A stretch of DNA of 64,000 nt from Acarospora socialis. Its lineage: Eukaryota; Ascomycota; Lecanoromycetes; Acarosporales; Acarosporaceae. The stretch is from assembly GCA_025617375.2 (NCBI GenBank), contig JAMYGW020000015.1, forward strand, positions 62,001-126,000. The letters are read 5' to 3'. This document shows positions 31,671 to 64,000 of this stretch, piece after piece (the stretch's first letter is position 1; the number at the start of each line of letters is the position of its first letter). The notes under the pieces were generated by a model. That model was not told the DNA's origin. It did not search any database and saw nothing but the letters and a program-made list of their open reading frames with translations. A program made the position numbers and the translations under genes.

Positions 31671-31768
31671 ACACTCATTACTACCTACCCCCCCTAATTT
31701 TCACACTTTGGAGTTATTTTATACTTTATAAAACTTGTTTATTTATTTATCTCCCACCTTGTCTAAAT

Positions 31769-32466
31769 ATGTTTTTAGGACACACCCTTATGGAGGGGAA
31801 AAAATTGAGGGAAGGTTCTCGATCTGTTAATTATCCTAGAAGAGGTCGTCCATTGGTTTCAGCGGGTGTTATTGGTTTGTATGGTGAGGAAAATTTTAGA
31901 CATTTAGGGTCTCGTCCTCCAGTCCTCCAGTCCTCCAGTCCTCCAGTCCTCCAGTCCTCCAGTCCTCCAGCGGCTGTTATTGGTTTGTATGGCGAGGAAA
32001 ATTTACCCTCTGGTAATAATCGTCATATCAGTTATGGACAGAAGGAGGGAAAATACTATGATGGAAAAAGTAGAAACCATAAAAAAGCATCTCGAAATAT
32101 AGACAGTAAAGTTATTAATGAGCGTAGGGTTGAGTTGGATAGTAAACCAATTTATCGCCTTTTGAATTAGATGGTAGATCTATTTATGAGATAGATGGAC
32201 GTGAATTAGCTATGGAAAAAGATGGTAAACCTATTAAAATTTTAAATAATAGTAATTTAGATGGTAGGGTAAATAATCGTTCTAGATATTCTTCTAGTTA
32301 AGGGTCAAGTAGTACAAAATATATGCCTAGTGACATTAGTACTTATTACAAGTGTGTAGGTAAAGTTGATTGGGATAATATAGATAATGATGGGTTTTCT
32401 AAAAATTATTTAGATAAAGTTGATATAAATAATTCTAATAAGAAAAATAATAAATCTAGAAAATAA
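31769..32466 (+). CDS. Plasmid-type hypothetical ORF upstream of dpo, with internal repeats, broken
   Basis: First part 31769-32170: basic N-terminus, then VIGLYGEEN twice, flanking a Ser/Pro repeat made by an 8-nt CCTCCAGT-type tandem array (about 31,913-31,970). Similar Asp/Asn-rich sequence continues to about 32,466 in other frames. It lies just upstream of dpo in the same direction, where invertron plasmids often carry the terminal-protein end of the polymerase gene. I see no diagnostic motif for that. Function unknown. Confidence 0.5.
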
Positions 32467-32581
32467 TTTTAGATGGTGGTTTAAATAGTATAATTTAATG
32501 ATACCTGTTTTTCCGTGGATTTTGATGGTCAGTATCGCTAAGTTATAGGGTAACATTTCCCTTTTTTTCTTTTAGTTTTAC

Positions 32582-35310: not shown

Positions 35311-35332
35311 CAAAAAAAAAAAGGATTTTTTT

Positions 35333-35351
35333 CTAATGCTTAAAGCATTAG
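35333..35351 (+). terminator. Hairpin plus T-tract after dpo
   Basis: Perfect 8-bp stem (CTAATGCT / AGCATTAG) with a 3-nt loop, followed by ten T. It starts 22 nt after the dpo stop. Confidence 0.7.
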
Positions 35352-35396
35352 TTTTTTTTTTATTGTTATAATATGAATATCTTTAGATAGATACCT

Positions 35397-35438
35397 AAAA
35401 ATAACCATCAGTCGCATAAGCGACTGATGGTTATTTTT
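35397..35438. terminator. Perfect 19-bp hairpin between convergent dpo and rpo
   Basis: Arms 35397-35415 and 35420-35438 are exact complements around a 4-nt ATAA loop, with A-rich and T-rich bases at the outer ends on both strands. It lies 24 nt after the rpo stop, so it fits a two-way terminator or transcript-end stabiliser. Confidence 0.85.
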
Positions 35439-35462
35439 ATATGTAGATAAATTTATATAATA

Positions 35463-38400: not shown

Positions 38401-38660
38401 ATAATATCCAAAATTAATAAACTTCTAAAGTGATATTGAGATAACCCATCTTCTATTTGCTCTCAATTAAATATTTTCTGAGCGTCATCATAAACAAAGA
38501 AAACTGAACTATAAATTCTAGTATAATTATCAACCCCTGTATATTTAAACTTAGAAAGCGAAACAAAAAGATGAATATTATCAGCTTTAGAATTTAAAAA
38601 TTGCACTAATTCTCTAGTAGAATAATCAGTATTTTTAGTCGCAAGTTCATATTTAGACAT
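35463..38660 (-). CDS. rpo: Phage-type single-subunit RNA polymerase of linear plasmid origin
   Basis: A single open frame of 1,065 codons under code 4 (ATG 38658-38660), with many TGA Trp codons. The C-terminal half shows the T7-type core: LDATCSGIQHLA (motif A, about 36,500), PNIIHSLDADHL (about 35,810) and ILTIHDCFGTHP (motif C region, about 35,735). Such enzymes transcribe linear plasmids in mitochondria. It is the only large plasmid gene here without an interruption, so it may still be expressed. It is AT-rich like its neighbours and convergent with dpo. Confidence 0.95.
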
Positions 38661-38697
38661 AATTTAATAACAATAATAATAAAAAAAAAAGGAAATA

Positions 38698-39159
38698 TTA
38701 AATATGGATACCTTTAACTACCATAATGCAGTAAATAAATCTACTACCACCAAAAAAACAAATATAATAACAAAATTTACAAAAAAAAAGTAGTATTATC
38801 TTTATATTTTCAAAAATAGATTGTATGCTGTCTAAATAAGTAAAAATTAAACTATTTTTATCTCTATGTGTAATTGTGCTATGTACTTTTCTAATATGTG
38901 TTAAGGATGTGTATCCTCTTTTTGTAAAAAAATTATTTATCTTTTTGTTTGCCAAAGTAGTAATGGAATTGTTTTCAGCCATAGAGTTAGCATTGGTGTT
39001 ATCATAATCTGTTGTCTCGCTCTTATTACTGTTAGTTTCAATCTTAGTTGTATTATTAGAGCCTCTAATTTTATTTTCCTCAACATTTAGATGAGGTATA
39101 ATCTGGATTAAACCATTAGAAGATGTAATTCTAATTTGTCCCTCGCGAGAGGTATCCAT
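38698..39159 (-). CDS. Hypothetical ORF upstream of rpo
   Basis: 153 codons, ATG start. Asn/Ser/Thr-rich N-terminal half, then a basic patch and a hydrophobic C-terminus (IILLFFCKFCYYICFF) that could be a membrane anchor. It lies 37 nt upstream of the rpo start in the same direction, so it is probably part of the plasmid gene set. No relative recognised. Confidence 0.55.
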   Translation of the reverse strand: MDTSREGQIRITSSNGLIQIIPHLNVEENKIRGSNNTTKIETNSNKSETTDYDNTNANSMAENNSITTLANKKINNFFTKRGYTSLTHIRKVHSTITHRDKNSLIFTYLDSIQSIFENIKIILLFFCKFCYYICFFGGSRFIYCIMVVKGIHI

Positions 39160-39228
39160 AAAAGGTAATATACTTTTTTTATCTTGTATATCAAACCCAT
39201 TAAAGGAGTTAAGTATATTAAAATTTAA

Positions 39229-39720
39229 TTAAAAAAAAATTATTAAGTAAGTAACAAGTCTAGTGTCTAATTTAGTTATTAAATGACGTTTATTACTACT
39301 TCCACCACTAATAGTTGTGATACTTTTTGAATCTTTAGCTGCTTTAACTATAAAAGCTCATGGGATATTATCTGCAATGAATAGGATATTGCCTAAAAAT
39401 TCATTAATATTCTCATTTCCCATAAGCTCTTTAAAACCATCCATATTAACATTAACAAAAGTAACTCTATTGAATGTTAGAGGTTCTTCTTTGCAAAGTT
39501 TTTCATTTTCTGTAATAAGTATTATTGACATAGTATCTATATTAAAATATTGAAGAAACATTGAAATTGATTCAGCCTCAAGGTTGAATTATTTGCTAGG
39601 ACATCATAAAGATGCAATTGATGAATTTATTGGCAGATTATAATTGATATTGCTAAGAACGAATAATTTATGTTCATTAGTGATATGTAAAAATTTATTT
39701 TTTTGTGTGTTCATGTTTTT
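39229..39720 (-). pseudogene. 'ISGG-KRH' plasmid-type ORF, interrupted copy
   Basis: C-terminal region TTISGGSSNKRHLITKL, shared with the intact ORF at 46538-47263 (LEISGGSTTKRHLVSHL) and a remnant near 54,560 (IISGGGNTRRHILS). The frame from 39561 is open to 39229. An upstream ATG-started piece (to about 39,720) is in another frame. The conserved Gly-Gly-x3-(K/R)RH motif suggests nucleotide or nucleic-acid binding, but this is a guess. Confidence 0.65.
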
Positions 39721-39797
39721 AAAATTTATAAAATAAAAAGAGGCAAATCCTCTAATTTAACACCTAAGTTTATATAGAAGGAAATTTAATATATAGA

Positions 39798-40358
39798 TTA
39801 TCATCTAGGATTTCTTGGCTTTCTTCGATTTAAAAGCCAAACTATTGTATTTTTTGCTCGTGTAATTTTTTCATAATCAGCTCTTACTACATTTTTAATT
39901 TCTTTACGTATACTTAGATTAGAATCTCAGTTTTGTTTAAACTCTTTAAAAGATCTATAGTTATCTCTATCTATTTCAAACATTTCTCAATATACTCTAC
40001 GTCTAACTTTATTAACAATCCTTTTAGGAAAATTTACTGCAAAGTTATAATTAGAACTAGAAGTATCAAGCTGAGGATTAGTTATATTCTCATCAGATAT
40101 AAAACCATTTGTTGTATCAGATACAGGCTCAATATAAGAACCATGAGGATTATCGCTTAAAAAGCATAATAAGTAGTTATTAAACATATTTAACACAATA
40201 TCTGGACAAAAGATTATTAAGAACACTGAAATAATACAATTAACTATAAGTAATAAAAAGATTAAAAATAAAAAGAGAATAAATCAATCTAACAATATAA
40301 ATAAAGATAATTTAACAATATAAAAAGGGAAATTTTTAAATAAATTTTGTATTTTCAT
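39798..40358 (-). CDS. Hypothetical plasmid-type membrane protein (short paralogue)
   Basis: 186 codons, ATG 40356-40358. Two N-terminal hydrophobic segments (LFILLDWFILFLFLIFLLL; FLIIFCPDIVLNMF), a Ser/Asn linker, then a basic C-terminal domain with FKEFKQNWDSNLSIRKEI and an Arg-rich end. The same plan and the matching FKxNWDxNLxI block occur in the next ORF, so the two are tandem paralogues. Confidence 0.7.
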
Positions 40359-40530
40359 GTTTTAGTAATTTTTTTATTTTTAAAAGGAGGGTAGTACCTC
40401 AAACTATTAAACCAATAAAGGTACAGTAAAGGATGCATTGAATGCTAATAGTCTACAACTTCATATGTAACACCTTATCTAATTTTATGCATTAATAAAA
40501 ATCTATTTACCTCTTAATTTGTTTTTTAAA

Positions 40531-41688
40531 TTAAGATCTATGAAATGGGCGTCTTGTATGCAATAAATTTTCAATTTCAGGTTTAACACCTCTATTAATA
40601 TTTCTTCTATGATTTCTATTAACACCTAACATATCCTCTACATCAGATTTTAAATCCTGTTTAATGTCCTTAGCTATTTGTTTAAATATATTTAAGTTAG
40701 GATCTCAATTTGCCTTAAACTCTACATAAGAGTCATATTTACCTGATTTTTTCTCTCAAATAGTCCAAAAGAACTTACGTTTACCTATATCAGAATATTT
40801 TACATAAACACTCTCAACTTTTGACTCAAAAGATCCAATTTTAGAATCTAAATGTTTAATACCTAACTTAATTCTATCAAACATACCTTCTTTTGGTATA
40901 ACATATTCAGTATAATGATGATTTTGTGTATTACCTATACTCTCAGGAACATTAGGATAATCATCTGCATTTCATCTATTCTGAATATTAAAAGAACCTT
41001 GTGATGAATCTCCACCTCTCTGTGCTAAAATTGAACAATTAGGTGAAGGATTACTAATTTGAGCATCAGATGTATTAACCACCATGCTAGATCTAGGAGA
41101 ATTAATTCCTAACTCAGCAACATTTTGAGAAGACATATTATTTTGTGTAACAACCAAACTACTACTAGTATCAGAATTAACACCTAATTCGTGTAGATTA
41201 GAATTTATAGAATTATTTTGAGTAGCCACTGAACTAGTATTAGGATAATTAACACCTAATTCATGGATAGTTGAGTGTTGAACATAAGATGAAGCTGGGA
41301 ATTCTGCTGGTCCTTGTTGAGGTGCATTAAGAAACAGCTCCGATGTTTGTCTTACTCTTACGACTGGTTTAGTGCTATAATTAATTGGAGGGGGAGAATC
41401 AGAATAAGGACTAGTATTGTCAGTAGGTTCACATAATAAAACCCCATCAAAATAACATTTAATACTAGATAATAATAATAAGTAAACAAAACATTTTAAA
41501 ATAAAAGACATAAAGAAATATGTTCAAGGATAATTTCTTTTTATATTTGTGAAAAAACGAGATAAATAATAAATAATATGTATAGTCTTAGGAAAAAGAA
41601 CTATGCAATCCCAAAAAACTAGCGTAAGTATAATTGTAACCTTTTCAGCTTTAAAAGCTAATAATTTGTAAATTTTGTTTATAGTCAT
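40531..41688 (-). CDS. Hypothetical plasmid-type membrane protein with internal repeats (long paralogue)
   Basis: 385 codons from ATG 41686-41688. N-terminal hydrophobic segments, then a long Ser/Asn/Pro linker with three degenerate copies of an about 27-residue unit (HELGVN... TQNN, last copy AELGIN), then a C-terminal domain VEFKANWDPNLNIFKQIAKDI and an Arg-rich tail. It looks like an anchored surface-like protein with a repetitive stalk, but there is no secretion route to infer in a mitochondrion. Paralogue of 39798-40358. Confidence 0.72.
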
Positions 41689-41699
41689 AATTTTAATAA

Positions 41700-42230
41700 T
41701 AATAATAAAATAAGAAAAGAGGATAATACCTCAAAAACACCATATAGAATAAAATGTGAATAAGAAAACCTATAAAATTAGAAAGCAAATAACATTACTA
41801 AGCAATAATAAAAAAACATTATCATGTAAATAAAACATCCATGAAATAAGTAATACTAACCAAACTAATAAGTCAAAATATAGTAACTTAATCTGTACTT
41901 AATTTATAACTTATTAATACATTTTAACAAAATTATCCATAATTATGATCATTACTAATCTAGCAATGTATTACTTACGTTTAATGGAAATGTATAATCA
42001 ATTCATCTATACTTAGTTGTATAAGTGTTTGTATTAGTGTTTGTCTTTTGTTTTGTCATAATAAAATAAAAATAAAAATAAAAAATAAAAGAGAAGAGAG
42101 AATAAATTTGTATATCTCAAATAACAAAAACCGGTAAGGGACCCTTTTTCTTCTCATAAGGGTACGTATGAAATAAATATTGGTTAGGTTCAGCTACTAA
42201 GAAAAATGTTTTATATCTATTTAGAAAAAT
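41700..42230. other. AT-rich spacer
   Basis: No supported gene. Short A/T-rich simple sequences only, up to the purine tract. Confidence 0.4.
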
Positions 42231-42237
42231 AAAAAGT

Positions 42238-42352
42238 CTAAAAAAGGAGGAAAAGGAAGAGGAAGAAGAAGAGGAAGAGGAAGAAGAAGAGGAAGAGGAA
42301 GAGGAAGAAGAGGAAGAGGAAGAGGAAGAGGAAGAGGAATGAGAAAAATAGC
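42238..42352. repeat. Homopurine GGAAGA/GAGGAA tract, about 105 bp
   Basis: Almost uninterrupted purines on the plus strand in GAGGAA/GAAGAA units. It is a mirror-like repeat, the kind of sequence able to form a three-stranded structure or to slip in replication. Confidence 0.92.
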
Positions 42353-42502
42353 CTCACCTCAAAACGAGCTAAAAGGGTTAAAAGGGCCCCTCTCTCATAA
42401 AGACATTAAAAAATAAAAATGGATATTTGTATCCCCTTCCCCCCCCACTTTTTAGTAATTATTATAATATTTATAGATTATAACTATTTAATCTTGTTCT
42501 AA

Positions 42503-42602
42503 TTATGCTAAAAACTTTTCTATTGATACAAACTTAATCACAATAGGCATAGAATTATCAACAATATAATAAATCTCTGAACATTGAAGATAAAACAGTG
42601 TA
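42503..42602 (-). pseudogene. cox2: cox2 3'-end fragment, decayed
   Basis: The reverse strand reads [27 protein letters not shown], a diverged copy of the last about 33 codons of cox2 at 10.65 kb ([27 protein letters not shown]). The CuA cysteine/histidine region is damaged and there is no gene body. It lies downstream of the nad1 chimera. Confidence 0.85.
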
Positions 42603-42724
42603 GCCATCATCAAATTCTGTTCCTTCTTGTGAACCTTGATCAATTTATTCCGGTAAAGTTTTATAAACTTTATTATCTACACCTTGTTGTATATAAATTT
42701 TATTAAGTTGTTCATTAGCAGTGG

Positions 42725-43936
42725 TTAGCTGTTAACTTTAGAAGGCAAAATCTCCCTATACCAACATATTTCTTGTATCGCACAAGAGTTGCATATCTTA
42801 AGTAAACATACTCTACATTGTCAACCACCCAGTTCGTTTGGGGTGATGTTTATATTGTGGGGGTACCAATGTATACCTAAAGGGTGTATAGGTCCAGGTA
42901 AAACAAGCCCAGCATGACCATTAACACGTCAACACCTTACACCTTGTTCACCTTCTCCAGCCTCTGGTTGTGTTAGAAGTGTTGGAGCTATACGATCCAT
43001 ACATCCGTAATGCTTACAAAGAGGACCTATAAGAGATGTATAGATATTAGGTCTAGTACCAGCCTCAGGATGATTAATGCTGTAGAATCTTTCTACATCA
43101 AGTAGATGTTGAGTATAAGGATCTCAACTACTATTAGTTTGAGGTCCAGTACTACTATGAGAGTGTTCATTATCGTCATTATCAGACTGAGAATTCCCAC
43201 CTTGGTTACCTACAGCTGAACCACCATTAGGACCTGTATTACCTCCAGGACCTGTGCTTCCTCCATTACCATTAGAACCTCCTGACCCTTCTCCGTGAGA
43301 CCCATTAGAGTTATTTGAACCAGAGGGTTCTGTTAACACTAGGTAATTTTCTAAGAAATTGTCTGGGTCTGGTAATAGCAACAACAATACTATAAAAGAA
43401 GGGAGAAATCCACTAAGTCCCTTCAACAATATTATAATAATAGCTCAAGATATAGCCAACACAGATAAACTTAATAGCAATAAAACTGTAAAATAAATTC
43501 AAAGGCTTAGATTAAACTTAGCTTTACAACATATTCTATAAGTATAAAATATAAATAATAATACAAGTAATAAAGTGTTAAAAAAAGAACTTTCCATCTC
43601 TAATATATAGAGACAAAAAATGGAAATTACCAAGAAAATAAGCTTGAAAATAGTACTATTAAGCATAAGCTTACCATAATTGTATAGGTTAAAACAAGCA
43701 TAATAGTGAAAAATGGCTTTGCTGGCCATAGACACATATTGTTTCAAAAGTAATTTTAAAGCATTTGCAAATGCTTGTAAAAGACCATAGTATCCAACAA
43801 TGTTAGGCCCTAGTCTTCTTTGCATACTGGCCATTGTTTTTCTTTCAGCTATGGTTACAAATGCCACGGTTAACAATACGGGCAGGCTAACTAATAACAC
43901 TTCAAGAATGGATATAATTTGAGGTAGATATAACAT
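42725..43936 (-). CDS. nad1: nad1 5' piece fused in frame to a membrane/Gly-rich accessory ORF
   Basis: The first about 65 codons are a good ND1 N-terminus ([32 protein letters not shown]). After that ND1 sequence stops, and the same frame continues for about 335 codons to TAA 42725-42727: several hydrophobic segments, a Gly/Asn/Ser-rich stretch (43139-43330), then a Cys/His/Trp-containing C-terminal domain ([22 protein letters not shown]). The rest of nad1 is not found between here and cox1, so this is either a chimeric partial duplicate or an exon whose partners lie elsewhere. The domain order parallels the nad3 fusion at 50402-51787. Confidence 0.82.
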
Positions 43937-43939
43937 TTG

Positions 43940-44135
43940 ATTTATAAAAAAAAGGATCTAATTTTCTTAAAACTAATATAAAAATCACTTAACTCTTTAC
44001 ATTTAAATTAAGAAATTATTAGATTAAAGATAACTATTTTAGTTTAGACTTTTAAAAGTTTGTAATTAGAGATTAATCTCTAAAAGTTATCTATTAATAT
44101 TTAATTTAGAGAATTTAGCTCTAATTTTATTATTT
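43940..44135. other. AT-rich spacer upstream of nad1 piece
   Basis: Nothing recognisable beyond A/T-rich sequence. Confidence 0.4.
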
Positions 44136-44136
44136 G

Positions 44137-44213
44137 CCACCATTAATGAATGTGTGGTTGGATGAATGAATGTTTGGATGGATGGCTGGATGGACAGATA
44201 GATGTATGAATGG
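44137..44213. repeat. GGATGAAT/GGAT microsatellite next to tRNA-Arg
   Basis: Degenerate 4-nt units (GATG/GAAT) over about 75 bp, ending 5 nt from the 3' end of tRNA-Arg. A second case of simple repeat growth at a tRNA 3' end (compare tRNA-Cys). Confidence 0.85.
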
Positions 44214-44217
44214 TGAA

Positions 44218-44288
44218 ATTCTTATCCAAGACTCGAACTTGGATCTAAATATTAGAAGTATCCTGCTCTACCATTGAGCTAATAAGAA
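44218..44288 (-). tRNA. trnR: tRNA-Arg (TCT)
   Basis: Acceptor TTCTTAT/ATAAGAA, D-stem GCTC/GAGC, anticodon loop CTTCTAA (TCT), T-arm CCAAG TTCGAGT CTTGG. Good cloverleaf. Confidence 0.95.
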
Positions 44289-44384
44289 ATATTAATCAAT
44301 ATACAGACATATATTAATTATATGCCTATAAGCATTTTGTATAAGATATGCCCAAGATTCTTTAGATAATTAAAGGAAAATGCT

Positions 44385-44760
44385 GGGTGTTAATAAAAGG
44401 GTTATTGTTAGCAATACTCACCTTCTAGTCGTTGAACGTTCTTACTTAACATACAATATGATATGTAAACATAACTATAAAATTGCAAAAGCAAGTTTCG
44501 CTTCAAATACACATGACTTATAAAAGGTCAAGTTGTTTTTGAAATTTACCCAGATGATCACCAATAGTTTATAAAAAAAAAATATAAGAGCACTAACATT
44601 AATAATTTAGAACCATAAAATAAAATTTTGTTATCATAAAGGCTATTTATCCTTTCTTTACACCTTACACAAGATGGTTCAGACTATTTCTTCATTTATT
44701 ATTAATTATCTAAACAATGTGCAACGCAAATATGTGAAAAGTGCAATGATAATTAACTAC
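44385..44760 (-). repeat. Stray copy of rnl group I intron core pieces
   Basis: Matches the omega-site rnl intron closely but in permuted order. On the minus strand the 3' core (AATAGTCTGAACC ... CTTTATGATAACAAAATTT) comes first, then a short spacer, then the 5' core (GGTAAATTTCAAAAAC ... GTTCAACGACTAGAAGG). The same arrangement occurs at 60,905-61,335. It ends near tRNA-Arg and is not inside a gene, so it is a translocated duplicate. Confidence 0.85.
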
Positions 44761-44894
44761 AATATATACATATACACCTCAAGGTAGGAGATTTTAAATT
44801 TAAATAATAATAATAATACTAGCTAGATCTTTACTGCTTATATTATTAAATTATTTAAAAATTAAAAATAATACAATACTAGATGGAAAATATT

Positions 44895-44942
44895 GGATCC
44901 GAGTTCAAGGATCACGGATCCGAGATCCTTGAACTCGGATCC
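44895..44942. repeat. GC-rich palindromic cluster with 19-bp perfect arms
   Basis: Arms 44895-44913 and 44924-44942 (both built on GGATCC) pair perfectly, around a loop that contains a further GGATCC palindrome (CGGATCCG). It resembles the mobile double-hairpin GC clusters of fungal mitochondria (for example PstI palindromes of Neurospora), but with a different core. Confidence 0.9.
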
Positions 44943-45046
44943 TTGATCAAAGATCTAAGATCTTAAATAGGTAACAAAAACCAAGGGGGTAAGCTTAGCC
45001 TCTAGATAAACCATACGCTAAAAGACGGTATAATAAAAAAAAAATC

Positions 45047-45990
45047 TTAATCAATAATTATCTTTAAAATAAATCTACCTTTAAAAGGGTTTTTACGATT
45101 TTCCTTTAAATATAAAGAAATACTAGCTTGTCTAAGTCCTAAGGCTCTTGCGGCTAAAGAAATGGAAGAAAAATTAGTTGTTATACCTTTGGATAAATCT
45201 GTTACTTTTATCTTACGAGCAGTAATTTGTACATTTAATATTTTTAATACTGGTTCTCCTATCTTTTTTACAATAATCTACCGAAGATAGGCTCTGTTTG
45301 ATTTAAGTATACGTAATTTATAAGATATCTTCTATCCAAACCTAAAGCTTTAGCTGCAGACCTAATAGCATGATATGTAGTTTTCGTTTTTAATTGCAAA
45401 TCAGTAACTTCTACTGCTTGACTAGTCCTTTGACTAGTAGACATTTTAGCAATAACTACGGATGACTTTTTTAAAACACTAAATCTCATTTTTTCTATTG
45501 TCTCATTTGAATGTCTTCAACCCTTACTTTTAGATGGAGAAGCTGGTTCTTTTAAAATATTATACTTCGGTTCTAATAGTTAAAAATAATATTTTTCCTT
45601 GTTTTTAATATCTTTTATATCACAAAACTCAACAATTGAAAAACTAAAATTTAAGTATCCATACTTCAAAAGGGCATTATTTATTACCATACTAGGCATT
45701 TTTAATAATCTATTTACATTATAATATTCAAGTATTCTACGTTTTAGGTTTACAGAACTACCGACATAACGTTTTTTATTTATTAAGTTTGTTCACATGT
45801 AAATACCAGATTTACCTTTACTATCATTTAATATATTCAATCTTTGGCTATGAGCATTAAAGTAGTATATCGGTCATTTAGACAAACTAGCAGAATAAAA
45901 TCTATGTATTTTATATGTATTTTTTCTATAGAAAAACGGTATGACCAAAATAAAGCTAAGCAATGAAATATTTAAATTATTTATTTTCAT
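45047..45990 (-). pseudogene. GIY-YIG endonuclease downstream of atp6 3' copy B, decayed
   Basis: From ATG 45988-45990: GKSGIYMWTNLINKKRYVGSS, an Arg in LKRRILEYY, then an in-frame stop inside the usual Glu/Asn region (KYYF, stop, LLEPKYNIL). NUMOD-like blocks follow (YHAIRSAAKALGLDRRYL to 45268), with a second related block in another frame to 45047. It starts 17 nt after the atp6 stop. Homologous genes sit at 49.2-49.9 kb (after atp6 copy A) and 57.2-57.8 kb. Confidence 0.85.
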
Positions 45991-46006
45991 TTATTTTTTT
46001 TTTCTA

Positions 46007-46210
46007 CTAATGTAAATCTAATGCGTCTTTAATATAACTACAAGTTAATACCACGAAAACTTGGGCTTGTATAACAGATATAGCTAGTTCTAAGGTTGAG
46101 AAAGCAAGAATAAAGGCTAAAGGTAATAAACCTATAAAAAAGAATATAAAGCCTGAACACATAATGTTATATGTGAAACCAGATAAAATAATAAGTAACA
46201 TATGGCCGCT
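46007..46210 (-). CDS. atp6: atp6 3' part, copy B
   Basis: Encodes the last about 65 residues of ATP synthase subunit a: GHMLLIILSGFTYNIM through FILAFSTLELAISVIQAQVFVVLTCSYIKDALDLH, stop at 46007. The essential Arg-bearing helix upstream is missing. The open frame beyond 46,210 is unrelated GC-richer sequence. The preceding part of atp6 is not adjacent. It differs from copy A at roughly one in six residues, so the two were not duplicated recently. Either copy could be an alternative 3' exon. Confidence 0.85.
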   Translation of the reverse strand, partial: SGHMLLIILSGFTYNIMCSGFIFFFIGLLPLAFILAFSTLELAISVIQAQVFVVLTCSYIKDALDLH

Positions 46211-46309
46211 GAGCACGGATAGCGAAGAGTGATGAGAGCGTGAATAGTACACGACTATGTGTCAACATATGAAATTTTCTCTTTTGGCTAGGATCAAATG
46301 AATGAATAT

Positions 46310-46492
46310 TTATCGCTTGCTGGCGTTTTTGTGCGCAAGCGAGGGATGGATCTCATATTTAGGCGCAGCCGTGTTAGAAATATTTTCTTCACTATCATTA
46401 GGAGTAGTAAGCGATTCATTATTATCCTCACTCATCGGAGCTTCTGTACCACCTAATCCCTCACCGGATAATTCATCGAGGTCGCTACGCAT
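46310..46492 (-). other. Short open frame, GC-richer, doubtful
   Basis: 60 codons, acidic (ELSGEG, SEDNNES). It overlaps a small hairpin (CGCTTGC at 46314-46320 with GCAAGCG at 46335-46341). It follows the stop of the 46538-47263 ORF in the same frame, so it may be that ORF's decayed tail. Confidence 0.3.
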
Positions 46493-46537
46493 AGATGGTT
46501 TATTCTCTCCGCAGGCTAGGACTTCTGCATTGTCACC

Positions 46538-47263
46538 TTATTTAATAACTGGTCTCTGACGAGCTCCAACTATAGTATTCCGATCATGAAGAAGAGTGAT
46601 AAGCTCATCTCCCGTATTAACTACAATATTTTTCTTATTAAAGCTAACTCTAGGAAGTATTTTATATTTATCAACATTGTCAAAAATAATACTATCCGCT
46701 AAAATGTCATATCTACAATCATTAAGAGCTAATAAATAGGCATTTAATCTAAGAACTAAATGTGAAACAAGATGACGTTTAGTAGTACTTCCACCACTAA
46801 TTTCAAGATTTAATTCTTTTTTGAATCCCACTACAATATCACTTCAATTGTAACCGTTAAAAATAAATAAACAGTGTTGAGTATCAAATTCTCCATTATA
46901 AACATTTATTTGTCCTTGTGAAACATATTGTAAGTAAACCTCAAGTTTCGCGATTGTAATACTATAAGAATTTAAAGTGCAAGAAACAAGGTCAAAGCTA
47001 GGATTCCTTTTACCAAAATTAATAATATTTTCAATAAACTCCGGGTTTACAGATTCAGGATTATTAATATAAATAATTTTTATTCGGTTAATTCCCATCA
47101 ATTTCAAAAGTTTGGGAAGTTTATCCAAATCAACTGTTATATCCTGCTTTAATAAAGCAGAATAAGCAAGTACATTTCGATTATTATTTTCAGGCGTTGA
47201 TTGTAAAAAAGGAGTAAAACAAGTAAGGAAAGCATCTTTAGGTATAACAAATTCATTCTTCAT
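46538..47263 (-). CDS. 'ISGG-KRH' plasmid-type ORF, intact copy
   Basis: 241 codons, ATG 47261-47263, TGA as Trp once. No hydrophobic segments: a soluble protein. The central-C region has LEISGGSTTKRHLVSHL. N-terminal about 140 residues of mixed alpha/beta composition. Related copies: the interrupted one beside rpo (39.2-39.7 kb) and a remnant near 54.5 kb. Placement next to plasmid genes in one case suggests linear-plasmid origin. Function unknown. Confidence 0.72.
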
Positions 47264-47268
47264 TTTTT

Positions 47269-47454
47269 CTAGTAATTTACAAATTCAAATGAGGTTAAAT
47301 CGACCTCAAAACTCAAAGGGATTTTGATGTATCCAAAAACATTTATCGCTACGAAGTACAGCACATTAGACCTCACACTAATCCCCCTCACTTTTGCGTA
47401 GCTGCGTAGCCTGGTACACGCATAGCCAGGTAGTACTTTTTTGTAGCCATACAA
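47269..47454 (-). other. Short ORF overlapping a direct repeat, doubtful
   Basis: 61 codons, basic N-terminus. Its end lies in the 52-bp repeat shared with 48,421, so it may be chance. Confidence 0.3.
47286..47340. repeat. Direct repeat flanking the free family A ORF (copy 1)
   Basis: About 52 bp starting CAAATGAGGTTAAA.CGACCT, with few differences from 48421-48475. The unit contains a small inverted repeat (GAGGT/ACCTC). The two copies bracket the ORF at 47507-48400, as expected after insertion or recombination of a mobile segment. Confidence 0.85.
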
Positions 47455-47506
47455 AGTATGAGAGCTTGCTAATAAATTAACCCACCATTAAACACAACTT
47501 AAATAG

Positions 47507-48400
47507 TTATTTTCTGCTATTTATATGTAGATCAACAAATTTATCAAGGTTATTATATAATTCAGTAATAAAATAACAATCAAATCCTAAGGCTATGAAT
47601 AAAAAAATAAAAACCAAAAAAATATATATAGCACTAGTGTTTTTATTTAATTGAATTAATTTAATTAAATAATAATTTAAATTATTGTTCATTTTATCAC
47701 CTATTAAACTAGATAAATTAAATTTAACTTTATCTTGGTTTAAATAAAATTTAAATAATATCATCATAAATAAAATAACAATTAAACCTAAACATACACA
47801 AGTTAGAGTATCTATAGAAAGTATTAAAAGCATTAAATCACTATACCCATCCCCTGAATCAGCCATAAGTTTATTTACACCATCAGGTAAATTACTAGTT
47901 GTGGGTGTAGTTGTAGTAGGTGGAGTTATAGTAGAAGAGGGTGTATTTACTACTCTATTAATTACAGAAGTACCAACATGTATAGCACCACCAGCAATAC
48001 CAGCACCTACTACTAGACCAGCTTTTTGTAAAGTAGGCAAACTTGATTTAGCTATAGCTTTACCCACAGCTCCAGATACACCAGCTACAGTTCCAGCAAT
48101 ACCAATATTACGTCCAATGACTTCCGCAGCATCTCTATTCATTTCAACACTACCACCAATATTTACAGAATTATTTGTAGTTTTATCTCCATCTAAATAT
48201 AAAGGTCCCACATTAAAAGTTAAAATGTTAAGATAGAAAAATATAACTACTACAAGTAGTAATCAAATAGGTGTTAAAATTTGTAAAGTTCTAATATATT
48301 TATTCTGAGATAACTTAAAGTCATCAAGATAAAATAAGGTAAAGTTAAGAAATAAAATAAAGGATAAAAAATATAAAAAAGAAGAAAATAAAATTATCAT
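47507..48400 (-). CDS. Family A membrane protein, free-standing
   Basis: 297 codons, ATG 48398-48400. Two N-terminal hydrophobic segments (SSFLYFLSFILFLNFTLFYLDD; WLLLVVVIFFYL), a hydrophilic part, the Ala/Gly core (AGTVAGVSGAVGKAIAKSSL, KAGLVVGAGIAGGAIHVGTS), a Thr/Pro linker and three C-terminal hydrophobic segments. It closely matches the cox1 exon 5 fusion. The family thus exists both fused and free, which shows where its natural borders lie. Flanked by direct repeats. Confidence 0.82.
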
Positions 48401-48420
48401 GTGTTATTATTAATTAAAGA

Positions 48421-48475
48421 CAAATGAGGTTAAACCGACCTCAAAACTCAAAAGGATTTTATATATCCGAAAATA
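48421..48475. repeat. Direct repeat flanking the free family A ORF (copy 2)
   Basis: Partner of 47286-47340. Confidence 0.85.
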
Positions 48476-50002: not shown

Positions 50003-50199
50003 TTAATGTAATTCAAGAGCATCTCTGATATAAGAACAAGTTAAAACTACAAACACTTGAGCTTGAATAAATGCTATAGCTAATTCTAAACCACTAAAAG
50101 CTATAATAAACGCTAAAGGTAATAAACCTATAAAAAAGAATATAACACTACTTGTCATTATGTTGTATGTAAACCCACTTAATATGGATAAAAGCATGT
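50003..50199 (-). CDS. atp6: atp6 3' part, copy A
   Basis: Encodes HMLLSILSGFTYNIMTSS through FSGLELAIAFIQAQVFVVLTCSYIRDALELH, stop 50003-50005. It starts at the same residue (His-Met-Leu-Leu) as copy B. Immediately upstream is the G-run repeat shared with 31.65 kb, and no atp6 body. The paired structure 'atp6 C-terminus + GIY-YIG gene' recalls the mobile element described in Allomyces atp6, where an endonuclease carries a replacement C-terminus. Confidence 0.87.
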
Positions 50200-50221
50200 G
50201 AAAATTTTTAAGGGGGGGGGG
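50200..50221. repeat. GAAAATTTTTAAG plus G-run, second copy
   Basis: Identical to 31648-31670. It sits exactly at the truncated 5' edge of atp6 copy A. Confidence 0.8.
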
Positions 50222-50244
50222 ATAAGGGATAAGAATAATGTTTT

Positions 50245-50300
50245 TATATGTGTTTCATCCTGCAAAAGCGTGAGTATAGTCACATATACACCACAGGATC
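50245..50300 (-). pseudogene. cox1: Scrap of cox1 last exon
   Basis: The minus strand aligns over about 46 nt with the coding sequence for [16 protein letters not shown] of the real exon near 11,760-11,810, with several changes. Too short to be functional. Confidence 0.7.
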
Positions 50301-50401
50301 ACCTGTAGCAAAATACTCTATTTATTTTATAAATAAACCATAATTTACTTTACACTATTTACATATATGTAAATTATATTTATTGTATTTTATATCTAGT
50401 A

Positions 50402-51787
50402 TTAAGGTGCATTTCTAAGACAATCTGTTAATATTTTGCTGTTACTTATTTTCCAGTAAGCAGGTCTCTTAGCACCACAATTAACATAAGCCTCATAATA
50501 TAATAGAGGCCTATGGACTTCAAGATAAGTTTTTAAAAACATATGATAATTTTTAGACAACAAAGATTTTGATATATGATATTGTTTATGATCAACTCTA
50601 GCTTCATCCAAGATATTAGCAAGTTCATTAGCATGTGGTTGATTTCCACCAGCAGGATTATAAAAAGGAAAACAACATTGTATTGATTGACCATATTGAG
50701 CCGCAACTGCTGGGTTATTACCCCCGCCAGCAGCAGGTTGATTACCTCCTCCCGGGTTATTACCCCCAGCAGGATAGGTTGGTGCTGTATTAACCTCTGT
50801 ATTGTAGTGATTGGAGTGGTTAGTACCGTGACCACCTAATGGAAGTATACCGGAGTTTCCTCCACTACCTCCCCCTCCACTACCACCACCATTACCAGAG
50901 CTCCCTACATTATTGCCAGAAGAGGCTGGGGGTGTAGTAGCATTAAGCAGTTGACTAATATCCATTCAAACTATAGAACCATTTAAACCGGGAATTAGAA
51001 ATACAATGGCTAACTCTAATATATGTTTAGATACATTAATAAATATAGAAAAAAAAATTAACATAACGAAAAACAATATCATTGAATAGGTAGTAATATA
51101 TATTAAATCCTTAACTGTTAAATTATGAAAAAAAACTATTTTTTTATTAAATAAATAAAAAACAAAAAGAAGGATTCTCTGTAAAATAAAAATTCTAACT
51201 AGTGCTAATACTAATACGGATCAATTTAGATATATAACTCAAAAATAGATTATACCACACAATATAATACGTATAGCTATATTAATAGCTATGTTTTTAG
51301 TAGATAAATTAGATATAAAAGTTCTGCATGCTAGTTTAATAACATTTAGATAACTTAAACTATAGAGGTTAAAGATATTTTTCTCAGATGTAAAACTTAT
51401 AATGATTGTTTCTTTATTTCAAACACTGTACATTTGTCTACTATCTATTTTTAATGCGTTTTTACCTAATTCAAACGCAAAGCCTAATGTTAAAACAAGG
51501 AAAAAAATAAGCATTACTATAAGACCATATATGCCATTTGCGTAAGCACTTACTACATACGGATACACTAAAAGAACTTCTAAATCAAACAATAAAAATA
51601 AGAGAGCAAATATAAAAAATGAAATATTAAACTGTGTCCTGTTTTGCCCTAAAAAAGAAGAGAAGCCACATTCAAATGCACTATCTTTTTCTTGATAAGG
51701 GTTATGAGGAGCAAATATCAAGTTAATTGCTAATAAAATAAATGCTAATAAAGGAATAAAAATAAAAAAAAAAGTAGTACTAGTCAT
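50402..51787 (-). CDS. nad3: NADH dehydrogenase subunit 3 fused to a membrane/Gly-rich accessory domain
   Basis: The first about 122 codons are a normal ND3 (IFAPHNPYQEKDSAFECGF; FDLEVLLVYP; ELGKNALKIDSRQ). Instead of a stop, TGA (Trp) follows at 51419-51421 and the frame stays open to 50402 (461 codons in all); I followed the junction region codon by codon. The extension has about five hydrophobic segments, a Gly/Ser/Asn/Pro-rich linker (about 50,700-50,930) and a C-terminal domain rich in Tyr/Lys/His. nad3 begins directly after the nad2 stop. If a cell read TGA as stop the protein would end normally at ND3, but every other gene here uses TGA as Trp. Confidence 0.9.
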
Positions 51788-58659: not shown

Positions 58660-58976
58660 ATCGTAGTGTTAAACTACGTATATTTAAGAGTATCTTAAGG
58701 TAAGTTTCATGCCTATATGCATTCAGCACTTATCTTTAACTAACATAGCCTTCCTGCCATGCCTATACTATAAATTTACTTAAGTGAAAGTAACATCCCT
58801 ACCACAACTAAATTGTATGGTATGACCAAAAAGTTAAATTTGGTCTTAATATTGGGCAGATAAACAACAGGTAAACCAGGGGTTAATATACCCAACTCCT
58901 TTCGTACGAAGGGGCTATCCTTATTTGACTCTAATTTCCTCTAGAAGATAGAAACCATACTGTCTTACGACGTATT
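58660..58976 (-). rRNA. rnl: Large subunit rRNA, 3'-terminal exon
   Basis: The minus strand carries CGTCGTAAGACAGTATGG and the sarcin-ricin loop region CTTCGTACGAAAGGAG (near 58,905), both diagnostic of domain VI. The 5' border near 58,976 follows the GCTGGGTT|TA insertion site. The 3' end, about 58,660, is an estimate. Confidence 0.9.
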
Positions 58977-59059
58977 TACTATTTTGTTATCGTAAAGTTG
59001 TTTATCTCTACTTCAATAGCTTTCACTATTGTACAGACTATGTCATCCAATCATTCAAG

Positions 59060-59818
59060 TTAAATAAAATCAATATTTTTTAGGTAATTAAAGCTAGTGC
59101 CATCTACACTTTTAGTAATAGATGGACCAACACCTAGTTTGTACAACATGCTTTCGTGCATATATTCCTGTATTAAGAATCTTACAATCTCAAGCTGATT
59201 GTTACTTATTGTTAACATATACTGACCATTACGGTCATGTATTGCTATAGTTTTTATTCCTAATTTCTTTGTTATTGCTTGTGCTAGTATTTCCACTTCT
59301 TGTTTTGAAAAACTATTAGTGTAAATACGAATAATCTTATCGCCAGGTTTAAAATTACCATCACCCATAATAAAATGTGCTAATACAACAGGTGTAATTA
59401 GATCTTGTATATTTAAAGGTAATGTTTTAATATATTTTCCTGATGTATAGTCGAGGGTATAAAACATCTTATGATAAAACAGAAAAACTGGTAAACTTAC
59501 TGTTTTAAACTTAACAATCATATTATTACTGTTTGTTTGTTTATTATAAACACTAGCTACATCTGGAGGACTATTAGTGTATGGTTCTAATAAATTATAC
59601 AAGTGTAATAAGTAAGGAGAATTCTTAAGACCAAACACTACACTTAAACGTGCTGCACTTGTATGGCTAGCTCTTTCTATACTTCCATCACTTAATAATA
59701 AACCAATAAGAGTCATATGTAAATAATAAGGTAATTTAACAAGCCGATAGTTTATTTTATATTGCTCACTAATTTTAAAAAGGGCATTTAGAAATCTTTT
59801 TATACTGTTACTTTTCAT
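59060..59818 (-). CDS. LAGLIDADG (type 2) endonuclease in rnl intron
   Basis: 252 codons, ATG 59816-59818. Motifs are IGLLLSDGSIERA and AHFIMGDGNFKPGDK with the C-terminal MLYKLGVGPS signature of the LAGLIDADG_2 subfamily (same ending as the nad5 intron 2 protein). Intact. It begins 10 nt after the stop of the family A ORF. Confidence 0.93.
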   Translation of the reverse strand: MKSNSIKRFLNALFKISEQYKINYRLVKLPYYLHMTLIGLLLSDGSIERASHTSAARLSVVFGLKNSPYLLHLYNLLEPYTNSPPDVASVYNKQTNSNNMIVKFKTVSLPVFLFYHKMFYTLDYTSGKYIKTLPLNIQDLITPVVLAHFIMGDGNFKPGDKIIRIYTNSFSKQEVEILAQAITKKLGIKTIAIHDRNGQYMLTISNNQLEIVRFLIQEYMHESMLYKLGVGPSITKSVDGTSFNYLKNIDFI

Positions 59819-59828
59819 CTTGAGTACT

Positions 59829-60920
59829 TTATTTATTAGAATTTTGATTAATTTCAGATATTATATCTATATGTGTAATCAGGAAATATGCAATATAAGT
59901 AGTACCTAAACTAGCTATAATTAATAAAATTCAAACTATAAACATTCAAATTTCATTAGATTTACTTGTATAACTTAATCCCTTAATAAAGTAATAATAA
60001 AAGCGTTCACCAAAAATATTTTTAATAAATGTTAAGTTATAGTTTTTACTTACAACTTTGGTACTAATAAATAACACAGCTAATGCCACAAGTAAGTATA
60101 GTATACACATATTTAATACTAGGTTAGAATTTAATAAATCCAGAATAGTTTCTATTGTAGAAGAATTATTTTCACTATCTTCCAATACAGAACTTGCAGG
60201 ATAAGAATCATTGCTACTATTATTAGAAGGTCTAGCGCTAGAAGTTTTATCTTCTACTTTTCTTTGAATTAGTGTATTTGTAGCATTAGTTACTACAAAT
60301 AGGCATCCAGCTATTGCACCACCTGCTGCAGTAGCACCTATTATTACTCCCAGTGGCATACTACTTGATTTAGCAAAATGGCTTACAGCAGTCATACCAC
60401 CTGCTACTGCACCTCCTACACCTATACCAGTAATAGCCTTACCTAAAGACCCTGGAAGATTAATATTAGGATTATGTACATTTATATTATTATTTTTAAC
60501 ACTCAATAATTCTTTACTTGTTTCCTCGTCAATGCAATATTGTATATCAGCACCAAACTGTCATAAATATACAAACAATAAAAACATACCTATTATAAAA
60601 AGATTTAATTCTAAATAAACAGGATTCAAAAAATTTTGGCAATATTTTTGCACAAAACTGCCTAAATAACCCTGTGAAGCAGCAAACAAGATTATTGTTG
60701 TAACAACTGCAGATGTTACAAATACTGGGTCAAAGATATTATTAGATAACAAGTAAAACATTTTATTTTCTTTAAAGGACTTAACATATCTACTATTATA
60801 ATTATACATAATTTGTCCTAAGCTCAACGATATTTTAAAAGTAGAGTCTATTTCACTAATATTGCTGTTAGCTATATTAATAGTTATACAGAGATATCTT
60901 AACCGTATGCTTATAAGCAT
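59829..60920 (-). CDS. Family A membrane protein in rnl intron
   Basis: 363 codons under code 4, ATG 60918-60920. N-terminal hydrophobic segments, IQYCIDEETSKELL, NVHNPNINLPGSLGKAI, the Ala/Gly-rich core (GVGGAVAGGMTAV; ATAAGGAIAGCLF), a Ser/Asn linker and two or three C-terminal hydrophobic segments. It closely parallels the extension of nad5 at 1-540. Being inside an rRNA intron it has no exon to borrow a start from and has its own ATG. Confidence 0.83.
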
Positions 60921-61335
60921 TTCGTATAAGATATGCCCAACAATAATTCTATATAGTTAAATAAGACTATGGGCATTAGTAAAAGGGTTATTGTTAGCAA
61001 TACTCACCTTCTAGTCGTTGAACTTTATAACTTAATATGTAAAAATTTATTTCAAATAAACTAATTACAATATTGCTTAAGCTAGTTTAGCTTCAAATAC
61101 ACAAGACTTATAAAAGGTCAAGTTGTTTTTGAAATTTACCCTGGTGATTCCCAATAGTTTAAATTAAAAACATTGGAACACTATTATCAGTATTTTGCTA
61201 CCACTTATTCAAATTTTGTTATCATAAAGGCTCTTTATCCTTTATTTCCATCTTTCACAAGGTGGTTCAGACTATTTCTTTATCTTTATTAACTATATAA
61301 AATTCATGCAACGCGAAATAAAAAAATATTGATTT
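60905..61335 (-). repeat. Duplicate of rnl intron core pieces
   Basis: 3' core then 5' core in the same permuted order as at 44,385-44,760. The 61,207-61,330 part is nearly identical to 61,681-61,790 at the end of the omega intron. Confidence 0.85.
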
Positions 61336-61539
61336 AATTTAATTTGAATGAGTGTACCAGGCACTCTTGTAAGGATTGTATTTAAAATACTAACCTTTTA
61401 GTCGTTGAACGTTATTTTACTTCAGATTTAGCTGAAGTAAAATATTCGCTGCAAATTTAAATACATATAAGTAATTAGTTTTTGCAATTCACCCGGTTGT
61501 TTTTATTATTACATATGTAATAGTAAAGGGCTAATATTT

Positions 61540-61676
61540 AACCCAGCTCGTGTAGCTTTTTAATCGACGAACAGTCGCACCCTTCATGATTTCTGCATTC
61601 ATGTGGATAAGCTAAGCCGACATCGAGGTGCCAAACTGCGCACTCAATTTGTACTCTCTGGCGCAATTAGCCTGTT
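61540..61676 (-). rRNA. rnl: Large subunit rRNA, domain V exon
   Basis: Reads AACAGGCTAATTGCGCC, then TTTGGCACCTCGATGTCGGC and CTACACGAGCTGGGTT: the peptidyl-transferase region. It is bounded by the omega site (GGGAT|AACAGG) and the downstream GGGTT site. Confidence 0.96.
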
Positions 61677-63804
61677 CAAATTTTGTTATCATAAAGGCTC
61701 TTTATCCTTTATTTCCACCTTTCACAAGATGGTTCAGACTATTTCTTCATATTTATTAACTATATAAAATTCATGCAACGCGAAATATGTGAAAACTAAC
61801 TTAATTAGCCTAGTTGTATTTAAATACAAAAAAAAAAGGATAATACAAATTTAACAAAAATATGTGCTATTTTAGAGAGGGAAAACTAAAAAATTACCGA
61901 TTATAAAACCTAAAAAAAAACATAATGGCTAAACTAAACATTTATCTACTACTTATTCAACCTTTTAATCCAAAAGACCCTATACGAGTTTTAGATTTTA
62001 TTTTTGTAAATTGTAGGTTAGATTTAACATGACCTCTTAAAAGAACTGAAGACAACCCTTTATAAGAAGAATCCAGATTTTTCAAGTTACCTATATATTT
62101 AAATTTAAAAACAGATTTTGCAGCAGTAAAACGTCTAGATAATCTACCAGCAGCTTCTATTCTAACTCCATTTATTGACTTATTTTTAATGGAATTTAAA
62201 ACAGTATTAACCAAAAAGTTAAAAGGTTTATCATTAGTGTAATAAGGAAATATTTTTTGCAGCAGTTTATCTAATGCATCTTTATTTTTCCCTACATAAG
62301 ATAAAAATGAATTTACCTTTAAATTCTGCACTTTTTTTAAAAACCATGTTTTGTTTGCTTTACTAGAAGTGTCATCTAATATAGTTAATTTATTTAAAGG
62401 TCTATATTTTATCATCCTCATAGAAGCTTTTAAAACTCTTAATAGTCTATTTTTTCTCTTTTTTAATTTTATAGCTATAGATTCTGATAAAATATCACTA
62501 TTCAAATGTAAGTATTTTAGATTAACTAGATTAAATTCTACATGTTTGTTATAAACTTTTTTTAGTATGTTAGTTAAACCAAATAAACGATTATTTTCAA
62601 ACTTAGATCTATTAAAGTAAACAATACGCTTGTAATGAATGTTTAACATTTCTTTTTGTAAAGATTTTAAAATAAAATTTTTATAATACTGTTTTGCATA
62701 GTTTTTTAAATTAACATTATCATAAATAGGTGTTTCAAAAAATAAAAAAATTTTTTTTTGCACTTTTTTAATTATAGCCAAACCTTGTAACTTTATTAAC
62801 CTTATCTTTCTCATAAAGCTTATTTTTCTTAGTCCTATTATGGTATTTAGCCGTTTTATTTTGTTAAAAAAGTATTTTTTTTGTCTATTGTATATATATA
62901 AAGTAACTGTAACTTTACTATTTGTATGTTTAAACTCTGCCCTACTTACAAATATTCTATTTGTTGATAATCTTCTAATTCTAGTTCTCAGACGTTTAGA
63001 TTTTATTTTTCCTTCAAGTTTTCTACTATAAAAGTTAAAATAACTTTTTATTAGTTTAATCACTACCTTATCAGCTACAGGTAATGATTTAAGGGTATTT
63101 TTGTTATATGCATATATGCTGTTAAATCACTCTTTATTTGCAGGTGGATAGTGTGTAATCAGACCCAACTGTTCACCTTGATCTGGATATTTAGCTTTAC
63201 CTTTTTTGTGTAAAGATATTAGCTTATCTTTATTTTTGTTATTTAATTTAAGATTATAAATATTTAACATGTTATATGTACTTGTAGGACTATAAAAATT
63301 TAGTTTTATTATATCTTTGTATTTTATCCTTAGCTTAACAAAAAAAAAAATTAGTTAAGTCTATTTCACTAATATTGCCATAAGCAATATTAATCATTAT
63401 ACAGACACAGCTTAATATTATGTTAATAAACATGATAACTATAATAATATAATATATGTAAACTTGTGTTAATAAATTATAAATATAATGCTTATATACA
63501 TATGTCATAAATATTTGCCTGTGCCATGTTTACAAACATCTAAAGTAAGGTGTGGCCAAGAACAATTATATATAGTTTATAAATATGCCGGGTGTTAATA
63601 AAAGGGTTATTGTTAGCAATACTCACCTTCTAGTCGTTGAACGTTCTTACTTAACATACAATATGATATGTAAACATAAGTATAAAATTGCAAAAGCAAG
63701 TTTCGCTTCAAATACACATGACTTATAAAAGGTCAAGTTGTTTTTGAAATTTACCCAGATGATTACCAATAGTTTCTCTAAAAACATTGGAGGACTAACA
63801 TTTA
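61677..63804 (-). other. Group I intron at the omega site of rnl, carrying rps3
   Basis: Splits TAGGGAT from AACAGGCTAAT, the omega site of yeast. The 5' core lies at 63,590-63,804 (GGTAAATTTCAAAAAC; GTTCAACGACTAGAAGG) and the 3' core at 61,681-61,800 (AATAGTCTGAACC). rps3 fills the loop between. This host relationship is the standard one in Pezizomycotina. Confidence 0.9.
61942..63270 (-). CDS. rps3: Mitochondrial ribosomal protein S3, intron-encoded
   Basis: 442 codons, ATG 63268-63270. Very basic. The C-terminal block GVRIEAAGRLSRRFTAAK, then a Ser-Ser-Lys-Gly region, LRGHVKSNLQ and SKTRIGSFGLKGW identifies RPS3/Var1-type protein of the small ribosomal subunit. Lys/Arg/Asn-rich N-terminal two thirds of low conservation, as usual. 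Contained in the omega-site intron, so its expression is tied to the rnl precursor. One TGA Trp near the end and one near the start. Confidence 0.96.
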
Positions 63805-64000
63805 ATCCCTAGCGTAGCTTTTTCAAAAATCCAAGACCTTTCCTTTCTGCATCTTGTGATCATATGCCCCGCTTACGCGACTGAAAGACGTGTAGGTCAA
63901 ACAGTAAAGCAAGATTAAGCCATTAAACTTTAAAAATAAAAATCATAATCATTTTATTAGTGGTTATGTTGTATAATATACTAATAAAACAACTAGAAAC
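63805..64000 (-). rRNA. rnl: Large subunit rRNA, upstream domain V exon (continues beyond window)
   Basis: Reads GCTTTACTGTTTGACC ... AAAAGCTACGCTAGGGAT, ending exactly at the omega site. The part beyond about 63,930 is AT-rich and not confidently rRNA. Confidence 0.85.

Follow-up and report, generated by a model that had tools for sequence, protein, structure and literature searches.

The window analysed here, the whole 64-kb stretch of DNA, reads as a fungal mitochondrial genome that uses genetic code 4, in which the minus strand encodes rnl, nad2, nad3, cox1, cox2, nad4L and nad5, with tRNA genes interspersed. The presence of rps3 in an rnl intron and the order of the tRNA genes behind rnl would suggest a filamentous ascomycete rather than a basidiomycete. 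Many partial gene copies are found in the window. Parts of cox2 and cox1 are duplicated (12047-12775 and 42485-42595), the compared stretches agreeing at 88% between 11901-12008 and 12634-12741 and at 80% between 10651-10761 and 42485-42595. The atp6 gene is fragmented, with a piece carrying the ATP-synt_A domain at 9349-9675 (minus strand) and, about 40 kb from it, two apparent copies of the atp6 C-terminus at 50003-50317 and 46007-46309 (both minus strand), each followed immediately by a GIY-YIG ORF. Two consecutive endonuclease ORFs are also present in nad5, a LAGLIDADG_2 gene (4286-5308) and then a LAGLIDADG_1 gene (3234-4304), both on the minus strand.

Twenty ORFs of the window are listed with an endonuclease Pfam domain, a count that includes two matches under Pfam's own cut-off and two fragments of one gene. 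A host-gene (exon) domain shares the ORF with the endonuclease in five of the 20, and in three the endonuclease ORF is immediately preceded by a hydrophobic ORF. These three lie in an rnl intron, in cox1 intron 5 and in cox1 intron 2, all of which possess a homing-endonuclease domain (PF03161 or PF00961). The arrangement, a hydrophobic ORF followed by a LAGLIDADG gene across a 10-nt gap, a 22-nt gap and a 14-nt overlap, respectively, had been described in an earlier note on this DNA and is confirmed to the base. The small size of the gaps is weak evidence, as each pair of ORFs, judged by coordinates, takes up most of its intron apart from the core. An Rfam scan returned no group I intron match, either in the whole window (gathering threshold, or E up to 1) or in 58900-63900 (E up to 10), and the assignment of group I core elements therefore rests on R-like and S-like elements located with group I patterns and on the mutual homology of the rnl intron copies.

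In the rnl intron, the junction consists of an ORF running from 60920 to 59829, a gap of 10 nt, and a second ORF running from 59818 to 59060, all on the minus strand. The downstream ORF (59060-59818) encodes a LAGLIDADG_2 endonuclease (Pfam E 8e-32) that is I-SceI-like, matching the PDB sequences of I-SceI (E 6e-9) and of another intron endonuclease (E 9e-11). The upstream ORF, M_rnl, has no endonuclease domain and shows five hydrophobic segments in a hydropathy script. Its intron has a 5' core at 60927-61195 with an R-like element at 61021, and a 3' core at 58975-59059, the end of which is approximate, with an S-like element at 59041. The adjoining rnl intron (61677-63802, minus strand) carries rps3 (61942-63270, Pfam VAR1), and the 5' cores of the two introns are alike, 60927-61183 agreeing with 63546-63797 at 81%. 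A second common stretch, 60809-60920 against 63320-63433 (75%), ends at an ATG of the membrane ORF. Because this stretch is common to the rps3 intron up to that ATG, the first 37 codons of the ORF that opens at 60920 are better read as intron leader, and M_rnl probably starts at 60809 (59829-60809, 326 aa) rather than at 60920, where the earlier note had begun it. In both introns the ORF slot is preceded by an R-like element and followed by an S-like element, and the 3' halves diverge more than the 5' halves. Thus, the membrane ORF and its endonuclease occupy the slot that is filled by rps3 in the homologous neighbouring intron. Directly upstream of the intron with M_rnl lies an intron of the same kind that has no ORF (within 61205-61545, minus strand), and the 61205-63810 rnl region has been copied in part, as a block, to 44282-44745 (minus strand), adjoining trnR.

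The same order holds in two cox1 introns, where the frame of the upstream exon continues into the hydrophobic ORF. In intron 5, an ORF running from 23566 to 22403 is followed after 22 nt by an ORF running from 22380 to 21445; the first contains the membrane ORF M_c1i5 (22403-23443, minus strand), whose frame is open from 23572 and passes from the exon sequence ..DPILYQHLF into the membrane protein, and the second (21445-22380, minus strand) encodes a LAGLIDADG_1 endonuclease (Pfam E 7e-31, with matches to PDB sequences). In intron 2, the ORF M2 (27330-28374, minus strand) is in a frame open from 28481, begins after the exon sequence ..GTGWTL, and ends at 27330, so that its last 14 nt are shared with an I-AniI-like LAGLIDADG_1 gene whose ATG is at 27343 (26495-27343, minus strand; Pfam E 1e-28 for the frame from 27412, and E 2e-29 to the PDB sequence of I-AniI). 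In both introns, the exon-fused position is held by the hydrophobic ORF, while the endonuclease begins at an ATG of its own near the stop of that ORF. The description of all three upstream ORFs as membrane-type suits M_rnl and M_c1i5, with about five hydrophobic segments each, better than M2, which is weakly membrane-like: it has two hydrophobic segments past the exon, and one of these falls after the 5' splice site but ahead of the R-like element, a position from which it is perhaps core sequence read as protein. The endonucleases differ, as had been claimed, in that the rnl enzyme is of the LAGLIDADG_2 type and those of cox1 introns 5 and 2 are both LAGLIDADG_1.

Elsewhere in cox1, intron 6 has an endonuclease (20919 to 20002) placed first and another ORF, with a TTG start (19972 to 19154), second, the splice sites of this intron having been set by eye. 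No database match was found for the second ORF (19154-19972, minus strand), which has near its start a stretch resembling the COX1 C-terminus and an AVEVKRP stretch that looks nuclease-like by eye. Two cox1 exons of only about 11 nt (near 20953-20964 and 19110-19120, minus strand) appear to lie around introns 5 to 7, as judged from splice sites set by eye; an exact pattern tried for the 3' end of intron 7 gave no match. A single stop-free ORF of 473 aa (10654-12075, minus strand) joins the last exon of cox1 to cox2 and carries COX1, COX2_TM and COX2 Pfam domains.

The tight junctions could be explained by translation, the upstream ORF mattering mainly as a translated leader through which ribosomes that have read the exon reach the start of the endonuclease, with the protein that it encodes of secondary importance. 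The 14-nt overlap in intron 2 and the 22-nt gap in intron 5 would suit such coupling, and host genes abut in the same genome, nad4L with nad5 (TAATG) and nad2 with nad3 (TAAATG). However, rnl has no exon translation yet shows the same arrangement, and a leader needs no long membrane protein; we consider an adaptor role of this kind highly unlikely.

Searching the window by tblastn with 16 candidate ORFs defined a family, termed M, of four members: the ORFs of the rnl intron and of cox1 intron 5, a free-standing one (47507-48400) and an in-frame continuation of NAD5 at the left edge of the window. M_rnl and M_c1i5 are homologous (E 2e-16 in the window search). Grouping M2 with M as one family was tried and rejected, as M2 matched itself only by tblastn and hhalign gave a probability of 0.3%. 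The observation that three introns share one order stands in full for hydrophobic ORFs (three of three), whereas family M itself accounts for two of the three and M2 shows no detectable kinship to it. Copies of M have five or six hydrophobic segments, as counted with the hydropathy script, and two glycine-rich stretches in mid-protein. The three M ORFs that lie whole within the window are 297-346 codons long and exceed the chance expectation: when the window was imitated by 60 Markov-1 copies, no stop-to-stop ORF was longer than 192 codons. Neither Pfam, PHROGs nor PDB contained a significant relative of M, the Pfam and PHROGs matches being weak and sub-threshold, and the fold predicted by AlphaFold from four sequences had a mean pLDDT of 38, too low to use. 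No relative appeared in scans of viral contigs (with M_rnl, M_c1i5, a four-row M alignment and M2), in scans of genome contigs (with the M alignment and the free-standing member), or in tblastn searches of M_rnl against bacterial plasmids and of M_c1i5 against phages, these being collections other than fungal-mitochondrial ones. The cox1 intron 5 endonuclease and one DNA polymerase piece likewise found no match among the viral contigs.

The M copies are far apart from one another, M_rnl and M_c1i5 differing at 160, 141 and 156 sites at the three codon positions, and at this distance the third-position excess expected of purifying selection is absent between them. Third-position G+C is 0.10-0.14 in M, 0.13-0.15 in the RNA and DNA polymerase genes of the window, 0.13-0.18 in the three paired endonucleases and 0.16-0.20 in nad2, nad3 and cox2, and on this measure M is not set apart from the plasmid-type genes, the endonucleases or rps3.

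One account of the pairs is a neutral one, in which insertion-tolerant intron loops gather ORFs of several origins, and order and spacing carry no meaning. In keeping with it, cox1 intron 6 holds an endonuclease followed by an ORF that lacks a database match, nad5 has neighbouring endonuclease ORFs of LAGLIDADG_2 and then LAGLIDADG_1 type, and partial gene copies are numerous in the window. On the other hand, the M frames are intact and far longer than chance would give, the same family is present repeatedly, and in-frame fusion to exons is seen. An accumulation without meaning is an unlikely explanation of the pairs.

Two of the four M copies lie outside endonuclease introns. The free-standing member, M_atp6 (47507-48400, minus strand), was recognized by homology and is preceded by a plasmid-type leader motif; by pattern, no R-like element occurs between 44435 and 61021, the region that holds it. 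It is followed by X46538 (46538-47263, minus strand), a plasmid-type ORF, and an all-against-all search of the window found a leader of 54 nt common to the two genes at 91%. The motif in this leader is TTTGAGGT..CCTC, with complementary arms, and it occurs on the minus strand at four places in 40383-48445: 48422-48445 before M_atp6, 47287-47310, 41715-41735 and 40383-40403. The four leaders end 21-26 nt before the starts of M_atp6, X46538 and two further ORFs, X40531 and X39798. The pattern TTTGAGGTN{2,9}CCTCNTTT matched the window four times and 100 shuffles not at all, a count that overstates the surprise because the pattern was picked after the leaders had been viewed; a looser pattern also gave four matches, with 0.12 expected. 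The motif is absent before the intronic and the NAD5-fused copies of M.

The two further ORFs belong to a plasmid-type block (32873-41688, within 32.8-41.8 kb, genes on both strands) that contains a single-subunit RNA polymerase gene on the minus strand (PF00940, E 4e-76), a plus-strand gene for a family-B DNA polymerase that is split in two (PF03175), and the minus-strand ORFs X39229/X38698, X39798 and X40531. The relative of X46538 (E 2e-9) adjoins the RNA polymerase gene and is a pair of ORFs spanning 38698-39588 and split by a stop (39229-39588 and 38698-39228). M itself was not found in the polymerase block; the relative there is that of X46538, the gene next to M_atp6. The block shows no clear terminal inverted repeats; in 31000-46000, the longest repeat among the 25 listed of 75 is 46 nt at 72%.

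The fourth member of family M (3-503, minus strand, identified by homology) continues in frame from NAD5 and leaves the window at its left edge. The NAD5 frame runs stop-free into M over 3-1574 (minus strand) and on past the edge, and similarity to the best NAD5 match stops at residue 341 of this 524-residue frame, which corresponds to position 664 in a matched chain 679 residues long. In-frame extensions, homologous to each other (E about 1e-9), hydrophobic and rich in glycine, are also seen in NAD3 (50402-51787) and in an N-terminal piece of NAD1 (42725-43957), both on the minus strand; a short-motif search of the window did not find the later part of NAD1.

What follows the four M copies is thus an endonuclease in two cases, X46538 in one and the window edge in the NAD5-fused case. 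Since the rnl and cox1 intron 5 ORFs are related, family M reached the place before an endonuclease at least twice, and one explanation is a two-gene selfish unit, in which the membrane protein aids the spread of the intron or the mitochondrion, for example through mitochondrial mixing or biased transmission, and selection keeps the two genes paired. Two related membrane ORFs in different genes, beside different endonucleases and in the same order, argue for such a unit, as do M ORFs that remain open over 297-346 codons. Against it stand the M copies outside introns that have no endonuclease behind them, and the third intron ORF, M2, which is unrelated to M. We regard a selected pair as very unlikely, and on the same grounds the proposal of a dedicated two-gene intron class with an accessory factor, made in the earlier note, is not borne out: two of the four M copies lie outside endonuclease introns and M2 shows no detectable relation to M. 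The order of the ORFs by itself proves nothing because there are three cases and they were chosen after the fact. The pairing looks more like hitchhiking than like a dedicated two-gene machine.

The explanation to which we lean, with somewhat better than even confidence, is that M is a plasmid-type gene lodged as intron cargo upstream of an endonuclease, expressed by exon read-through or from an intron leader, and spread by homing. Family M would probably be a leftover of mitochondrial plasmids, an origin suggested by one leader motif and by gene neighbourhood, M having no significant match to a known protein and no relative in the collections searched. Copies of such a membrane gene may have settled at several places in the mitochondrial genome, and in rnl and cox1 intron 5 a copy occupies the intron's ORF slot, immediately ahead of the endonuclease. 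The corresponding place in cox1 intron 2 is taken by M2, and because M2 is unrelated to M, this upstream insertion assumes the same event for another gene.

The upstream place would permit translation. Exon read-through is a usual route by which intron ORFs are expressed, and the cox1 ORFs, being in frame with the exon, could be translated in this way, while in rnl the membrane gene may depend on the intron leader that also precedes rps3 in the sister intron. The endonuclease, beginning at its own ATG near the stop of M, could plausibly be translated by termination and reinitiation, and such coupling is made plausible by the abutting nad4L/nad5 and nad2/nad3 genes of the same genome. Homing driven by the endonuclease would then copy the whole intron, M included. 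Several observations count against this plasmid-cargo reading: the hydrophobic ORFs stand before the endonuclease in three of three cases and after it in none, which fits a selected order, the intronic M copies have no leader motif, the polymerase block lacks clear terminal inverted repeats, and third-position G+C does not set M apart.

A bolder version treats M as a portable plasmid gene planted in frame behind respiratory frames, both at the end of NAD5 and inside endonuclease introns, so that its product is translated together with a host subunit and enters the inner membrane behind it, and in introns forms one selfish unit with the endonuclease; the membrane protein would bias transmission once mitochondria mix, and the endonuclease would copy both genes. 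To this version we give very little credence.

Most surprising among the observations is that the family found in the introns is also fused to NAD5 and free-standing with a plasmid-type leader. If the plasmid-cargo explanation is true, genes of mitochondrial plasmids gain a second route of spread by boarding homing introns, and with it a route to expression that needs no signals of their own; it would also show where some of the transmembrane ORFs that lack an explanation in fungal mitochondrial genomes come from.

Several elements of the arrangement have precedents. Introns with two endonuclease ORFs are described (PMC4894602), as are tandem or complex introns (PMC6279837, PMC7902536), and hypothetical ORFs make up nine of 61 intronic ORFs in one account (PMC4162613). 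The pairing had been put forward as not being a described intron class. Introns with two ORFs and intron cargo are both in print; a search of open-licence literature gave no description of a membrane ORF placed immediately ahead of an intron endonuclease. PMC6506933, PMC7804350 and PMC7487136 bring nothing decisive to the question. Fusion of intron ORFs to exons and core creep are reported (PMC8393795, PMC12308204), the difference in cox1 introns 2 and 5 being that the exon-fused ORF is the hydrophobic one and not the endonuclease. For the NAD5 fusion, parallels are provided by Phlebia radiata, with C-terminal fused extensions of cob and nad6, and by Sclerotinia borealis, in which an atp9 copy runs into unrelated sequence (PMC4019555, PMC4162613). 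There too mitochondrial genes continue stop-free into unrelated sequence, but the extension of NAD5 described here belongs to an intron-resident family.

Closest to the plasmid side of the argument are the Agaricomycetes. Trametes cingulata and Agaricus bisporus have putative plasmid genes within introns, and a link between transmembrane ORFs and plasmid genes is reported as well (PMC4201751); in Heterobasidion, nearly all of 20 intergenic ORFs have transmembrane regions (PMC10234125); and in Lentinula, a gene for a five-helix protein of 350 residues lies between pol1 and atp8 (PMC9744193). The Agaricomycetes plasmid and transmembrane ORFs (PMC4201751, PMC10234125) resemble the present case in occurring with plasmid DNA and RNA polymerase genes and, for putative plasmid genes of two species, in introns. 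They differ in that a membrane ORF directly before an endonuclease is not described in the available text of these two sources, and they are likened to M by their description.

Protein-coding cargo unrelated to homing is also known from fungal mitochondrial introns, where N-acetyltransferases and other genes have been reported (Wai et al. 2019, as cited in PMC8393795, PMC12308204 and PMC7902536). M shares with them this lack of relation to homing but is a putative membrane protein with copies outside introns, one of them behind a plasmid-type leader. The nearest counterpart is rps3, which in Ascomycota resides in a group I intron of rnl at L2449/L2450, with LAGLIDADG sequence inside it or fused to it (Sethuraman et al. 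2009, as cited in PMC12308204 and PMC4019555), and in some strains the rps3 of the mL2450 intron shares one continuous frame with an endonuclease to which it is fused (PMC12308204). As in that intron, a gene that is not an endonuclease and a LAGLIDADG gene occupy the ORF slot here, and the cores of the window's two introns are homologous; M, however, is a putative membrane protein rather than a ribosomal one, and the I-SceI-like endonuclease that accompanies it has an ORF of its own. The M arrangement is best classed with intron cargo, of a plasmid type, beside the rps3 cargo of the neighbouring intron.
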